Of a stretch of 64,000 nucleotides of DNA, positions 1,476 through 60,969 are shown piece after piece. The notes beneath the pieces are model-generated. The model was not told the origin of the DNA. It saw only the letters and a list, made by a program, of their open reading frames with translations, and did no database searches. This DNA comes from Kutzneria viridogrisea. GTDB lineage: Bacteria; Actinomycetota; Actinomycetes; Mycobacteriales; Pseudonocardiaceae. The DNA is taken from contig JACJID010000011.1 of NCBI GenBank assembly GCA_014138725.1, forward strand, positions 1 to 64,000, given 5' to 3'. A program made the position numbers and the translations under genes. How positions within the stretch are numbered: the stretch's first letter is position 1; every line of letters begins with the position of its first letter.

Positions 1476-1664
1476 GACCCCTGCGGTGATCGTTGCCGGT
1501 CAGCCGGGGTAGACCGGCACGCCCTGGTCCTGTGCGGCCAGGGCAGGGTCATCGCCTGGTACCTGGAGGTCGAGATCGCTACTGCCTCAGGTTCCAGCGG
1601 ACCCACTCAGCGGCGTGCGCAGAAACGATGTCTGCTTGGAGTGGGTGTCGCTGGTGGATTGTGT

Positions 1665-1686
1665 TCTAGCTAGCCCCCTAGCTAGA
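1665..1686. promoter_or_regulatory. Operator palindrome upstream of padR (left copy)
   Basis: TCTAGCTAG, a CCCC spacer and the exact complement CTAGCTAGA lie nine bases before the padR start codon. The position fits PadR autorepression at or downstream of its promoter. An identical copy is at 60799-60820. Confidence 0.7.
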
Positions 1687-1694
1687 GTTGGAGC

Positions 1695-2039
1695 ATGGCG
1701 GGTTCACGGACTGGGCCGAAGATGACGTTGCCCACGCAGCTGGTGTTGCTGGCGTTGCTGGAGGAGCCGGACCGGGAGCGGTACGGGTTGGAGTTGAGTG
1801 AGGTGGCCGGGTTGGCCACGGGCACGATTCACCCGATCCTGGCCCGGCTGGAGGGCTGTGGGTGGGTGCGCTCCCGGTGGGAGGAGATCGATCCCCATCA
1901 GCAGGGCCGGCCTCGGCGGCGTTACTACCGGCTGAATCCCGACAGCATCGCCCTGGTCCGGGCGGCCTTGGCCCGTACTCAGGCCGCCCGGTCCGGTGTG
2001 TTGCGGTTGCGGCCTGACCTGGCCGGAGGCACCCCATGA
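1695..2039 (+). CDS. PadR-family transcriptional regulator (left copy)
   Basis: A 114-residue protein of usual length for short PadR regulators. It has the winged-helix core LLALLEEPDRERYGLEL, a recognition region TGTIHPILARLEGCGWV, and the wing GRPRRRYYRLN. It probably binds the CTAGCTAG palindrome nine bases upstream and represses its own operon; the inducer is unknown. Its stop overlaps the start of the RDL-repeat gene (ATGA), so translation is coupled. The predicted protein is identical to the right-arm copy at 60446-60790. Confidence 0.9.
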   Translation: MAGSRTGPKMTLPTQLVLLALLEEPDRERYGLELSEVAGLATGTIHPILARLEGCGWVRSRWEEIDPHQQGRPRRRYYRLNPDSIALVRAALARTQAARSGVLRLRPDLAGGTP

Positions 2040-2776
2040 CCAGCCACATCAACGTCGCCAACGCCCGCGCCCTCAACTACGCCCGCGACCTCGAGCACAA
2101 CCGTGCCTGCAACCTCGCCCTCATCCTCAACCGTGCCCATGAACTCGCCCTCACCCTCGAACTCGCCCTCGCCCTCGCCCCCGCCCACGTCTCCATCCGC
2201 GACCTCGCCCTCCCCCGCGCCCGCGACCGCAAACTCGTCCCCGCCCCCGCCCTCACGACCCCCGCCCTCACCCCCGCCCGCGAGGTCGTCCGCGACCTCG
2301 CTCGCGACCTTCACGTCGCCCGCGACCTCGCCCGCGACCTCAACTACGTCCGCGACCTCGACCACGACCTCAACAGCGCCTACGCCCTCGCCCACGACCT
2401 CACCCTCGACCTCGAGGTCGTCCGCGACCTCGTCCACGACCTCGCCTTCAATCTCGACCGCGCCAGCGCCAGCGCCCGCGCCCTTGTGGACAGGCTGGAC
2501 GTTGCGAGGGCGCCAGCCCTGGGTTCCCGGGACGTTGCCGGTCCGCGAGGGGCGCGGCCGGGATGGATGTCCCGGCACCTGGTCCAGCGGGCGGTGTGGT
2601 GCCTGCCCAGCGCCCACCGGGCGCGGTACCGGGAAGAGTTCGATGCCGAGTTGGCCGAGATCGCCGAGACTAGGGGCCGGGTGCGGCAGTGGGGCTACGC
2701 GGTGCGCTTGGTGGGGCGTGCGGTGGCGTTGCGGCACGCGGTGCAGGCTGCGGTTCCCCAGCGGGAACAGTCGTGA
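2036..2776 (+). CDS. Hypervariable RDL-repeat helical protein (left copy), 246 aa
   Basis: Residues 1 to about 165 are repeats built on ARDL/VRDL/HDL units with leucines spaced 3-4, predicting a long amphipathic helix. The C-terminal 80 residues form a conserved domain with RYREEFDAELAEI, a motif like one near the start of many actinobacterial membrane proteins. The repeat DNA is a degenerate GCGACCTCGCCC tract open in several frames on both strands. The ATG overlaps the padR stop, and the stop overlaps the next gene's GTG. The right-arm homologue (59742-60449) matches this protein over the last ~80 residues but not over the repeats. I infer a scaffold or partner-binding role, without direct evidence. 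Confidence 0.75.
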   Translation: MTSHINVANARALNYARDLEHNRACNLALILNRAHELALTLELALALAPAHVSIRDLALPRARDRKLVPAPALTTPALTPAREVVRDLARDLHVARDLARDLNYVRDLDHDLNSAYALAHDLTLDLEVVRDLVHDLAFNLDRASASARALVDRLDVARAPALGSRDVAGPRGARPGWMSRHLVQRAVWCLPSAHRARYREEFDAELAEIAETRGRVRQWGYAVRLVGRAVALRHAVQAAVPQREQS

Positions 2777-3162
2777 CGACGCCACCCGAAGTGACCGTGA
2801 CGGCGCCACCCGAGGTGACGAGACCGCTAGGCCCCTCGCCCTCTACCTCGGCGGCGGGGTGGAGGGAGTGGCTGCGCTGGTTGTTGGACGATGACGCCCG
2901 CACCCGGCGGGCACGCAGCCTGCTGCTGGTGGTGTGCGGGACGGTGATTGTGCTGATCATGGGCGTGCTGGCGATGGTGCTGCTGCCGCTGGCGTTCATC
3001 GGGGTCGGCGGCAGCGTGGCCGGGGGCGGCGGCAGCGCACTGCTAGGACTGGCGGCGCTTCGCCGCCGCCGAGGTCGGCAGGGCAAGACCGGCGGCCGCG
3101 GTCTACCTCGGCCCGGCCGGCGCGCTGGTGACGCATCCTGCCGCCCGGGATCAGCCCACTAA
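2773..3162 (+). CDS. Small two-span membrane protein of the PadR operon (left copy), 129 aa
   Basis: The GTG start overlaps the previous stop (GTGA). The N-terminus is Thr/Pro-rich (TTPPEVTVTAPPEVT) and is followed by WREWLRWLLDDD, a hydrophobic segment (LLLVVCGTVIVLIMGVLAM) and a second short hydrophobic/glycine segment. It ends in a basic Arg/Gly tail. It is probably an inner-membrane protein working with the RDL protein. The right-arm copy differs by one visible residue (GSAH versus GAAH at the end). No named family is recognised. Confidence 0.75.
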   Translation: MTTPPEVTVTAPPEVTRPLGPSPSTSAAGWREWLRWLLDDDARTRRARSLLLVVCGTVIVLIMGVLAMVLLPLAFIGVGGSVAGGGGSALLGLAALRRRRGRQGKTGGRGLPRPGRRAGDASCRPGSAH

Positions 3163-3271
3163 CAGACTTTCCGCACCATCACCGACATCCGGCTGCGCAT
3201 CCCACTCACGCGCAAGTGCGGTGATCACGTCCGCCGGGCCCCTTCCACGCCCTCCGGCGCGGAGTGGAGCT

Positions 3272-3832
3272 TCAGGCCTGGGGGTGATCCTCGCCGAGGA
3301 AGTCGGCGATCTCCTCGGGCACCGGCAGGGGCGGGACCCAGCCCAGGCGGATCAGCGCGGTGTACAGCGTGGTGCGCGCGGCGATCAGCCGGTCTCGCGC
3401 GGCGGTGTCCGGGGTCGCGGTGTCGCCGAGGATGGACGCGTCGTGGGCGTCGGCCAGGGTGCGGGCGGCCGCGACCACCGGGCCGGGCAGCTGCCGCGCC
3501 AGGTCCGCGCCGCGTGCGCTGTTGGCCTCGAGGGCCCGCTCGATCAGCGGGTCGGCGGACTCCAGGCGGTGGATCACCGCGATAGCGGTGGCCGGCCCGG
3601 CCTCGGCGGTCAGCTCGACCAGTACCACGGCCATCCGTGTCAGCTTGATGTTGTGGTGCTGGGACAGGCGCACCAGGTGCTCGAAGGCGGTGTCGGGGTC
3701 GATGCCGTGGGCCCCGGCGAGGACGCCGATGGCCTGCTCGATGACCGACCGCGAGTCCAGCGCCCGACGCATACCCGCCACAGCCCGCCGCAACCGCGTC
3801 AGCTCGTCGTCCTGACCGCCCCCGGTACTCAT
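3272..3832 (-). CDS. ANTAR-domain regulator, 186 aa
   Basis: Residues 20-75 carry an ANTAR-like three-helix segment (SRSVIEQAIGVLAGAHG then HLVRLSQHHNIKLTRMAVVLV). ANTAR domains bind paired RNA hairpins and cause transcription antitermination. There is no GAF or receiver domain, so the input is unclear; the C-terminal half is helical and ends PVPEEIADFLGEDHPQA. A C-terminal fragment of a close paralogue survives at 8743-8870, so this module was once duplicated. Confidence 0.7.
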   Translation of the reverse strand: MSTGGGQDDELTRLRRAVAGMRRALDSRSVIEQAIGVLAGAHGIDPDTAFEHLVRLSQHHNIKLTRMAVVLVELTAEAGPATAIAVIHRLESADPLIERALEANSARGADLARQLPGPVVAAARTLADAHDASILGDTATPDTAARDRLIAARTTLYTALIRLGWVPPLPVPEEIADFLGEDHPQA

Positions 3833-8742: not shown

Positions 8743-8870
8743 TCAGTCCTGGGGGTGATCGGCGCCGAGGAAGTCGACGATCTCCTCGGGCACCGGCAGG
8801 GGCGGGACCCAGCCCAGGCGGATCAGTTCGGTGTACAGGGTGGTGCGCGCGGCGATCAGCCGGTCCGGGG
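8743..8870 (-). pseudogene. C-terminal remnant of an ANTAR regulator
   Basis: The DNA closely matches the last ~125 bp of the intact ANTAR gene at 3272-3832, including the stop codon; the encoded end reads PVPEEIVDFLGADHPQD. Homology stops abruptly where the next gene's stop codon begins. The DNA-binding or RNA-binding part is gone, so it is non-functional. Confidence 0.85.
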
Positions 8871-59169: not shown

Positions 59170-59355
59170 ACACCCGTTACGACAGCCAACCGCGTTTTCG
59201 TTCCACCCGATTCGCATCAGGCCGGTGCAGCCGGACCGCAGGCGCATCCGCCTTCGTCTGTGCTCCCCATCTTGATGACCTGCCCCAGCTGTAGGGCGCA
59301 GATTGAATCTCGGCGGGATACGCAGCCGGATGCCGGTGATGGTGCGGAAAGTCTG

Positions 59356-59745
59356 TTAGTGGGCTGCCCCTGGGCGGCAGGATGCGTCACCAGCGCGCCG
59401 GCCGGGCCGAGGTAGACCGCGGCCGCCGGTCTTGCCCTGCCGACCTCGGCGGCGGCGAAGCGCCGCCAGTCCTAGCAGTGCGCTGCCGCCGCCCCCGGCC
59501 ACGCTGCCGCCGACCCCGATGAACGCCAGCGGCAGCAGCACCATCGCCAGCACGCCCATGATCAGCACAATCACCGTCCCGCACACCACCAGCAGCAGGC
59601 TGCGTGCCCGCCGGGTGCGGGCGTCATCGTCCAACAACCAGCGCAGCCACTCCCTCCACCCCGCCGCCGAGGTAGAGGGCGAGGGGCCTAGCGGTCTCGT
59701 CACCTCGGGTGGCGCCGTCACGGTCACTTCGGGTGGCGTCGTCAC
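59356..59745 (-). CDS. Small two-span membrane protein (right copy), 129 aa
   Basis: It is identical to the left copy except for the residue three from the end (A for S). The GTG overlaps the stop of the RDL gene. The same features apply: Thr/Pro N-terminus, a long hydrophobic segment and a basic tail. Confidence 0.75.
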   Translation of the reverse strand: MTTPPEVTVTAPPEVTRPLGPSPSTSAAGWREWLRWLLDDDARTRRARSLLLVVCGTVIVLIMGVLAMVLLPLAFIGVGGSVAGGGGSALLGLAALRRRRGRQGKTGGRGLPRPGRRAGDASCRPGAAH

Positions 59746-60449
59746 GACTGTTCCCGCTGGGGAACCGCAGCCTGCACCGCGTGCCGCAACGCCACCGCAC
59801 GCCCCACCAAGCGCACCGCGTAGCCCCACTGCCGCACCCGGCCCCTAGTCTCGGCGATCTCGGCCAACTCGGCATCGAACTCTTCCCGGTACCGCGCCCG
59901 GTGGGCGCTGGGCAGGCACCACACCGCCCGCTGGACCAGGTGCCGGGACATCCATCCCGGCCGCGCCCCTCGCGGACCGGCAACGGCCGGGGAACTTGGG
60001 ACTGTCACCGTCGCAGGTTCCAGCCCGTTCACAAGAGCGTGGACGCGGCCGCTGGCGCGGGCGAGGTCGCGGACGAGGTGGTTGGCGAGGTCGCGAGCAC
60101 GGTCGCTGGCGCGGGCGGGGGTGAGGTTGAGGTTGAGGTCGTCGGCGAGTCGGCGGACGTGGGCGTGGGCGGCGGCGAGGTCGCGGGCGAGGTCGCGGAC
60201 GTGGTCGTTGGCGAGGTGGTTGGCGAGGTCGCGGGCACGGGCGAGGGTGACGGCGAGGTCGAGGACACGGACACGGCTGAGGGTGAGGGCGAGGTCGCGG
60301 GCGCGTCCGGGGTCGCGTTCGAGGTCGCGGGCACGGACACGGACACGGCTGAGGGTGAGGGCGGCGTCGCGGGCGAGGTCGAGGTCGCAGGCGAGGTCGC
60401 GGATACGGACACGGTTGACGGCGAGGTCGAGGGCGCTGTGGCTGGTCAT
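59742..60449 (-). CDS. Hypervariable RDL-repeat helical protein (right copy), 235 aa
   Basis: The last ~80 residues (from AGPRGARPGWMSR) match the left copy exactly as far as I can see. The N-terminal ~155 residues are built of similar but differently arranged units (TLSRVRVRARDLERD, ARDLANHLANDHVRDLARDL, RRLADDLNLNLTPA). No straightforward alignment to the left repeats is possible. It overlaps padR by ATGA and the membrane gene by GTGA. Confidence 0.75.
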   Translation of the reverse strand: MTSHSALDLAVNRVRIRDLACDLDLARDAALTLSRVRVRARDLERDPGRARDLALTLSRVRVLDLAVTLARARDLANHLANDHVRDLARDLAAAHAHVRRLADDLNLNLTPARASDRARDLANHLVRDLARASGRVHALVNGLEPATVTVPSSPAVAGPRGARPGWMSRHLVQRAVWCLPSAHRARYREEFDAELAEIAETRGRVRQWGYAVRLVGRAVALRHAVQAAVPQREQS

Positions 60450-60790
60450 GGGGTGCCTCCGGCCAGGTCAGGCCGCAACCGCAGCACACCGGACCGGGCG
60501 GCCTGAGTACGGGCCAAGGCCGCCCGGACCAGGGCGATGCTGTCGGGATTCAGCCGGTAGTAGCGCCGCCGGGGCCGGCCCTGCTGATGGGGATCGATCT
60601 CCTCCCACCGGGAGCGCACCCACCCACAGCCCTCCAGTCGGGCCAGGATCGGGTGAATCGTGCCCGTGGCCAACCCGGCCACCTCACTCAACTCCAACCC
60701 GTACCGCTCCCGGTCCGGCTCCTCCAGCAACGCCAGCAACACCAGCTGCGTGGGCAACGTCATCTTCGGCCCAGTCCGTGAACCCGCCAT
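60446..60790 (-). CDS. PadR-family transcriptional regulator (right copy)
   Basis: The protein is identical to the left copy in all 114 residues. Because both copies see the same operator sequence, each could repress both operons. Confidence 0.9.
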   Translation of the reverse strand: MAGSRTGPKMTLPTQLVLLALLEEPDRERYGLELSEVAGLATGTIHPILARLEGCGWVRSRWEEIDPHQQGRPRRRYYRLNPDSIALVRAALARTQAARSGVLRLRPDLAGGTP

Positions 60791-60798
60791 GCTCCAAC

Positions 60799-60820
60799 TC
60801 TAGCTAGGGGGCTAGCTAGA
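60799..60820. promoter_or_regulatory. Operator palindrome upstream of padR (right copy)
   Basis: TCTAGCTAG-GGGG-CTAGCTAGA, identical to the left-arm site after reverse complement, nine bases before the start codon. Confidence 0.7.
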
Positions 60821-60969
60821 ACACAATCCACCAGCGACACCCACTCCAAGCAGACATCATTTCTGCGCACGCCGCTGACGCCAGAGCTGCGTTCAACACC
60901 AGTACCGCCGCCCCGCGCGCCCTCGCTTTCACGCTCCCTCTCCGCAAGATCAACATCGATCACACCTCT

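Follow-up and report, generated by a model that had tools for sequence, protein, structure and literature searches.

Two inverted PadR operons on a probable Kutzneria viridogrisea plasmid join near-identical flanks to a diverged, repeat-coding block

Two copies of a three-gene PadR operon, lying inverted and facing inward at 1607-3203 (+) and 59315-60878 (-) of the window (bases 1-64,000 of a contig 77,674 bases long, from the 10.25-Mb, 11-contig genome of Kutzneria viridogrisea), are nearly identical on both sides of a block in which they have diverged. Delimited by an inverted-repeat search and base-by-base alignment of the arms, this block (left 2048-2532, 485 bp; right 60437-59986, 452 bp) codes for the first two-thirds of the middle protein and comprises a degenerate hexanucleotide tract followed by a non-repeat linker (Table 1). 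The account towards which we lean, if without great assurance, is that of a self-contained, autoregulated PadR signalling module in which recombination of the flanks is combined with fast turnover of the repeats.

Table 1. Features of the two operon copies, in window coordinates
Feature	Position	Strand	Remarks
PadR operator palindrome TCTAGCTAG-CCCC-CTAGCTAGA, left	1665..1686		inferred operator, overlaps padR promoter
padR, left copy, 114 aa	1695..2039	+	Pfam PadR E 5.4e-08
Middle gene, left copy, 246 aa	2036..2776	+	overlaps padR by ATGA
Degenerate hexanucleotide tract, left copy	2048..2479	+	144 codons, 131 ending in C
Diverged non-repeat linker, left copy, residues 149-166	2480..2532	+	15/53 nt differ
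Constant part including three-helix C-terminal domain, left copy	2533..2776	+	0 differences vs right
Small membrane protein, left copy, 129 aa, two hydrophobic segments	2773..3162	+
Small membrane protein, right copy	59356..59745	-
Middle gene, right copy, 235 aa	59742..60449	-
Diverged linker, right copy	59986..60038	-
Degenerate hexanucleotide tract, right copy	60039..60437	-	133 codons, 120 ending in C
padR, right copy	60446..60790	-
PadR operator palindrome, right copy	60799..60820		exact pattern search

The upstream flank (1607-2048) differs between the arms at 5 of 442 nucleotides. Four of these differences fall in padR and all four are synonymous (0 nonsynonymous in 115 codons, stop included), so that the PadR proteins of the two copies are identical; the left one scores 33.1 bits against PF03551, at a cut-off of 27, as a PadR-like winged helix-turn-helix protein. 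The downstream flank (2533-3146) contains 0 differences in 614 nucleotides, the last 80 residues of the middle protein are the same in both copies, and the membrane genes differ by one amino acid and two synonymous codons. The base-by-base alignment, in which the arms are far from uniformly divergent, thus bears out an earlier reading made from the sequence alone, which had described identical PadR proteins, membrane proteins one residue apart, and a middle gene unalignable over its N-terminal two-thirds with an identical end. The likeness of the flanks also supports its proposal of a recent common origin or homogenisation. Divergence is unequal between the upstream and downstream flanks (Fisher p 0.013, for a comparison picked after the data had been seen), a weak argument for homogenisation in separate events rather than a single duplication. 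As judged from one near-identical pair (n = 1), conversion of the flanks may be part of the account. The idea of an invertible switch was considered only in passing: inversion between the arms would alter nothing visible, because each arm has its own promoter and the 3' parts are identical.

Within the block, the two tracts were aligned globally and the score compared with those obtained after shuffling one of them. When shuffling was done in 12-nt blocks, 19 of 300 shuffles reached the observed score (z 1.5); when it was done by codon, none of 300 did. The left and right tracts have units in common, and the order of these units is not shared. Spacings between leucines are even in 30 of 31 cases on the left and 26 of 26 on the right, counted over the whole N-terminal region, and the periods reported by TRF in the tracts (6, 12, 30, 36, 42, 60, 66 and 72) are all multiples of 6; the basic unit is therefore a hexanucleotide, and a 12-mer is two units. 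A degenerate repeat had been recognised by the sequence-only reading, and this much stands, but its unit is 6 rather than 12 nt and the diverged block runs 53 nt beyond it into the linker. Exact internal duplications were found in the right tract (29 nt at 72-nt spacing and 22 nt at 138) and in the left (20 nt at 132), to be set against a longest match of 20 nt (right) and 16 nt (left) in 40 codon shuffles; they show rearrangement within each tract copy. Contingency-type in-frame coding repeat loci vary by slippage, and the tracts resemble them in their short unit, a multiple of 3, their in-frame rearrangement and their conserved flanks; they differ from them in having degenerate units and in that divergence extends into a linker outside the repeat. 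Reading the RDL repeat as a helical heptad or a coiled coil was rejected, leucines at lags 3 and 7 being absent in both tracts where about 4-6 of each are expected and the even leucine spacings further ruling it out, although AlphaFold does draw long helices in the tract, mostly at middling confidence.

The linker has no such repeat, and between the copies it contains 12 nonsynonymous codons and 1 synonymous codon. This excess is borderline (P 0.026, or 0.10 if the codon with two changes is split into silent and non-silent) and could hint at selection for change, which our best explanation does not need. A linker so diverged, immediately beside 614 identical bases, means that slippage alone is insufficient and that recombination is also needed, which either homogenised the flanks or swapped the block; the divergence of a non-repeat segment points to recombination between alleles rather than to repeat shuffling alone.

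The operator palindrome, matched as an exact pattern, occurs at 2 sites in the whole 10.25-Mb genome, both of them at these operons. PadR would bind this palindrome, and because the exact pattern is confined to the two operons it probably governs little or nothing beyond them. The control by PadR that the sequence-only reading had assumed gains support from this conserved palindrome at both padR promoters, and the membrane partner that it had invoked is encoded in the operon in both copies. Of 83 loci of the wider family, 61 have the motif CTA[AG]NTAGA[GA]T ahead of padR, its end 6 nt (56 loci) or 7 nt (5 loci) from the start of that gene; the motif is found nowhere else on the one strand searched of the same loci (522,649 nt); the full palindrome is present in 31 of the 83. 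CTAG lies within 90 nt upstream of padR in 76 of 83 loci, against an expectation of 0.067 per 90 nt. With a -10-like hexamer so near the start, padR transcription is probably leaderless.

The AlphaFold model of the left middle protein ends in three helices (177-188, 192-212 and 215-239, block means 86-95). The border between variable and constant residues (166/167) sits in a low-confidence coil, 163-176, which separates the predicted N-terminal helices from the C-terminal three-helix domain, modelled with confidence; the linker is for the most part drawn as helix, with only its last four residues inside the coil. Modelled in isolation, the C-terminal domain again forms three helices (2-11, 14-34 and 37-60, mean pLDDT 82.5).

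This arrangement is best compared with HAAS, a small helical domain found beside a stand-alone PadR and fused to changing sensor or membrane domains; the HAAS-PadR dyad has been proposed as an alternative to two-component signalling (mSystems 2024, PMC11237479). The earlier statement that no described system has this layout was too strong, since the dyad, as presented in the accessible part of that article, is a close analogue: both have a helical partner gene beside a stand-alone PadR, and both have three consecutive helices (PMC11237479). Two differences stand out against the same portion of the source, in which HAAS is typically N-terminal in sensors and has a GxP-kinked third helix (PMC11237479), whereas in the window family the domain follows the changing part and lacks GxP, none being present among the invariant or nearly invariant columns of the C-terminal domain alignment (A3). 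The Pfam HAAS profile matched 1 of 40 members, at E 0.077; hhalign against HAAS covered 31 columns of the first helices and left the third helix outside (probability 32, P 4.8e-4). Foldseek with the domain model, a short three-helix model that gives the comparison little power, returned no match at E 0.001 or better, 2O3L, a solved HAAS relative, being outside the 7 matches listed. Since neither GxP nor a convincing match to the Pfam profile was found, HAAS membership is not claimed for the C-terminal domain. As for the N-terminus, pentapeptide repeats are mentioned for HAAS in the part of the article available to us, and a repeat-type N-terminus of the present kind is not (PMC11237479). The LltR-type PadR operon of Listeria is a further relative in layout, with a PadR repressor, its own operon, and a DUF1700 membrane protein plus a further gene; it differs, in the part of the report available to us, in having no variable repeat domain and a multi-spanning LltR partner (Sci Rep 2019, PMC6624303). 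Our literature search found no description of an actinobacterial architecture with PadR, a changeable N-terminus and a constant C-terminal domain.

We propose a mechanism in which PadR would repress its own two operons only. The middle protein would be built from an N-terminal input or interaction block, the linker, and the constant three-helix domain, which most likely couples to PadR; such coupling is suggested by the linkage of the genes and by analogy with HAAS as far as that source (PMC11237479) describes it. The N-terminal block would have a sensing role, and the membrane protein would probably act as anchor or output. Either conversion between the copies, acting on their flanks, or replacement of the block by that of another allele would keep padR, the operator, the coupling domain and the membrane gene alike, while the tract would change through in-frame gain, loss and rearrangement of pieces of 6n nt, with repeat slippage as the probable engine, so that alignable order is soon lost.

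The operon belongs to a widespread actinobacterial family in which PadR is accompanied by a protein that is changeable at its N-terminus and constant in its C-terminal domain, and often by a membrane gene. Screening one genome per species with a four-row PadR alignment yielded 102 relatives, 80 of which were kept, and the C-terminal domain is present in 71 of these 80 PadR-selected loci (in L085 not downstream of a PadR match). Profile matches to the domain occur in 50 of the 390 genomes searched in Kutzneria's own taxonomic family and in 83 of 341 genomes of the family of Streptosporangium carneum, the weaker ones of which may be due to chance. The comparison set comprised 84 distinct loci, including the two window copies; a locus entered it if PadR lay no further than 1,500 nt upstream and the N-terminal part had 40 codons or more, and those that lacked PadR, fell short of this length or duplicated another tract were excluded. 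The N-terminal part of these relatives may be an HD_4 (L162), HTH_31 (L033) or DUF4407 (L043) domain, a non-repeat region, or a region of the repeat type, to which 14 of the 84 loci belong, window copies included, at a codon-shuffle z of at least 5 (a threshold set after the data had been seen). A crude hydropathy scan put a small membrane gene of its own immediately after the middle gene in 29 of 84 loci, and crude scanning likewise showed an in-frame extension of the protein past the C-terminal domain in 23 of 84.

Among non-repeat pairs with a C-terminal identity of at least 0.68, the N-terminus aligns in 24 of 24 (z at least 18.4), 9 of which are HD-type. The two repeat pairs above the same identity give z 9.0 (window left/right, a value that counts the constant stretch ahead of the domain) and z 4.7 (L048/L071), and for two mixed repeat/non-repeat pairs the values are 6.0 and 13.2; these figures come from a small repeat set and from non-independent pairs. 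To the contrary, several non-repeat pairs with PadR identity of at least 0.84 also have unalignable N-termini (for example L160/L174 and L028/L045), at a C-terminal identity of 0.62 or less. Repeat-type N-termini thus align weakly where the constant domains match, and the two repeat pairs support the view that they would change much faster than their flanks between species as well. The sequence-only reading had looked to repeat tracts compared between strains; related operons collected at one genome per species support it at the level of species, on two repeat pairs.

The repeat tracts also stand apart in their codons. Pooled leucine codons CTC:CTG number 238:59 in the repeat tracts and 57:176 in the PadR and C-terminal parts of the same loci, as against 455:607 (N-terminal) and 463:788 (PadR and C-terminal) in non-repeat loci; taken singly at p 0.01, the bias holds in 10 of the 14 repeat loci and fails in L042, L131, L173 and L186. 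In 10 of 10 tracts tested, out of the 14 loci and over their first 420 nt, the tract folds less than its synonymous recodings (z 2.9 to 8.1), with z of -1.5 to 2.2 for eight non-repeat controls chosen out of 69. Both the codon bias and the weaker folding would be expected from common founder units, and equally from selection that keeps the transcript unfolded. A reading of the wobble-C codons as selection against mRNA folding was accordingly not retained, being indistinguishable from inheritance of founder units.

Several other explanations of the twin operons deserve weighing. Were the pair a recent duplication that then drifted by unequal repeat pairing, with neither selection nor recombination, the 6-nt unit, the periods in multiples of 6 and the internal duplications would all follow, but a non-repeat linker differing at 15 of 53 positions beside 614 identical bases would not, and we hold this to be decidedly unlikely. 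Import is unlikely too, if a little easier to entertain: the plasmid would have gained the second operon, or the block alone, from a strain with a long-diverged allele, and no diversification would have occurred in this genome. A putative conjugative plasmid would suit such a transfer, and block-like replacement would take in the linker; however, no donor was found among the six other genomes of the genus, the C-terminal domain being detected in G001 only, where the N-terminus is of a different, Glu-rich (ARAREL-like) kind, and fast tract evolution would still be required somewhere. The middle protein of G001 reads, by eye, the same as that of Kutzneria buriramensis locus L084. That the assembly merged the flanks of two diverged operons into one consensus is scarcely credible: the identical stretch does run to 614 bp, but the upstream differences and both tracts are resolved, the copies lie in different surroundings, and the genome comprises 11 contigs.

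The sequence-only reading had taken the sharp boundary as a sign of active repeat shuffling, and a dedicated diversification system (retroelement, silent cassettes or recombinase) might indeed rewrite the N-terminal block for recognition variants, leaving sharp boundaries on both sides, mostly nonsynonymous linker changes and a block boundary in the coil between predicted domains. The boundary is not decisive, because gene conversion of the flanks gives sharp boundaries equally. A search of the genome with left-tract DNA returned the right tract and weak matches only (40 of 314 candidates scored), the three best of the weak matches overlapping an apparent dehydrogenase gene and two low-complexity genes. 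Two RVT_1 genes were found in the genome, L197 and L198, both on other contigs and with motifs of the QGGILSP and QGAPSSP types; we take them to be group II intron-like and retron-like rather than diversity-generating. With neither a cassette nor a reverse transcriptase of the diversity-generating type detected in these searches, and with ordinary repeat turnover and conversion being enough, a dedicated system seems very improbable to us and the claim of active shuffling is not sustained. A broader and highly doubtful picture would make the module a recognition switch, linked to the membrane and regulating itself, in which diversification of the input domain is purposeful, so that one plasmid would carry several orthogonal specificities; if so, these might serve, for example, rival-plasmid exclusion, phage sensing or kin recognition. 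In that picture, open to the same heavy doubt, the hexanucleotide repeat would keep the block in an easily rearranged, weakly folding form and recombination would hold the flanks constant.

On our preferred account of flank recombination with repeat turnover, the operons outline a widespread actinobacterial PadR module, marked by a palindrome that overlaps a promoter of probably leaderless type and by a C-terminal domain that Pfam does not recognise. The module pairs this constant domain with changing inputs, among which the hexanucleotide-repeat class seems exempt from the conservation seen around it. The operon pair offers a within-genome comparison against near-zero background divergence, in which the rate and mode of repeat turnover become measurable.

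Database searches place the operon as follows. At the thresholds used, searches of Pfam, NCBIfam, PADLOC and PHROGs returned nothing for the left middle gene, and the whole-protein model of its product has no Foldseek match at E 0.001 or better. The PADLOC anti-phage defence search gave no match for either window middle protein or for those of L048 and L099; weak matches were REase_II (E 0.013, L113 middle protein) and ZorA (E 0.29, membrane protein), and PadR matched Csa3 at 5.1e-06, probably via its HTH. A phage origin was rejected, the sole PHROGs match being that of PadR to an unknown family (E 0.066), and a scan of viral contigs with PadR confirmed nothing. In a plasmid collection, the C-terminal domain profile had no match, and PadR relatives were present in 39 records.

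Some relatives show features of their own. By reading, 8 of the 84 loci have a nucleotide-cyclase-like gene, soluble and in place of the membrane gene as the next gene (L029, L057, L061, L113, L115, L116, L117 and L132), the protein of L029 having no Pfam match. In L162, L163, L164, L166 and L181-L184 the C-terminal domain has an HD hydrolase-like N-terminus joined to it, HD_4 being confirmed for L162 alone; this may be a version of the module that works with nucleotide signals. L186 and L161 have an alanine-rich N-terminus, with a periodic pattern of its own in L186, which may reflect a repeat expansion of separate origin. In Actinokineospora inagensis (L026) the repeat-type gene has an in-frame stop in its tract and may be broken or misassembled.

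The contig that carries both operons is most likely a plasmid, since genes for a TrwC relaxase, a DnaB helicase and a ParA-type ATPase lie on it; the relaxase gene (first 500 residues scanned) begins just beyond the right arm, and the plasmid is putatively conjugative. Comparison of the contig ends found no terminal overlap, which leaves a circular form without support. A 123-nt direct repeat, 94% identical and spaced 5.5 kb, occupies 3272-3394 and 8743-8865, the copy at 3272-3394 coinciding with the end of an unrelated reading frame on the minus strand.
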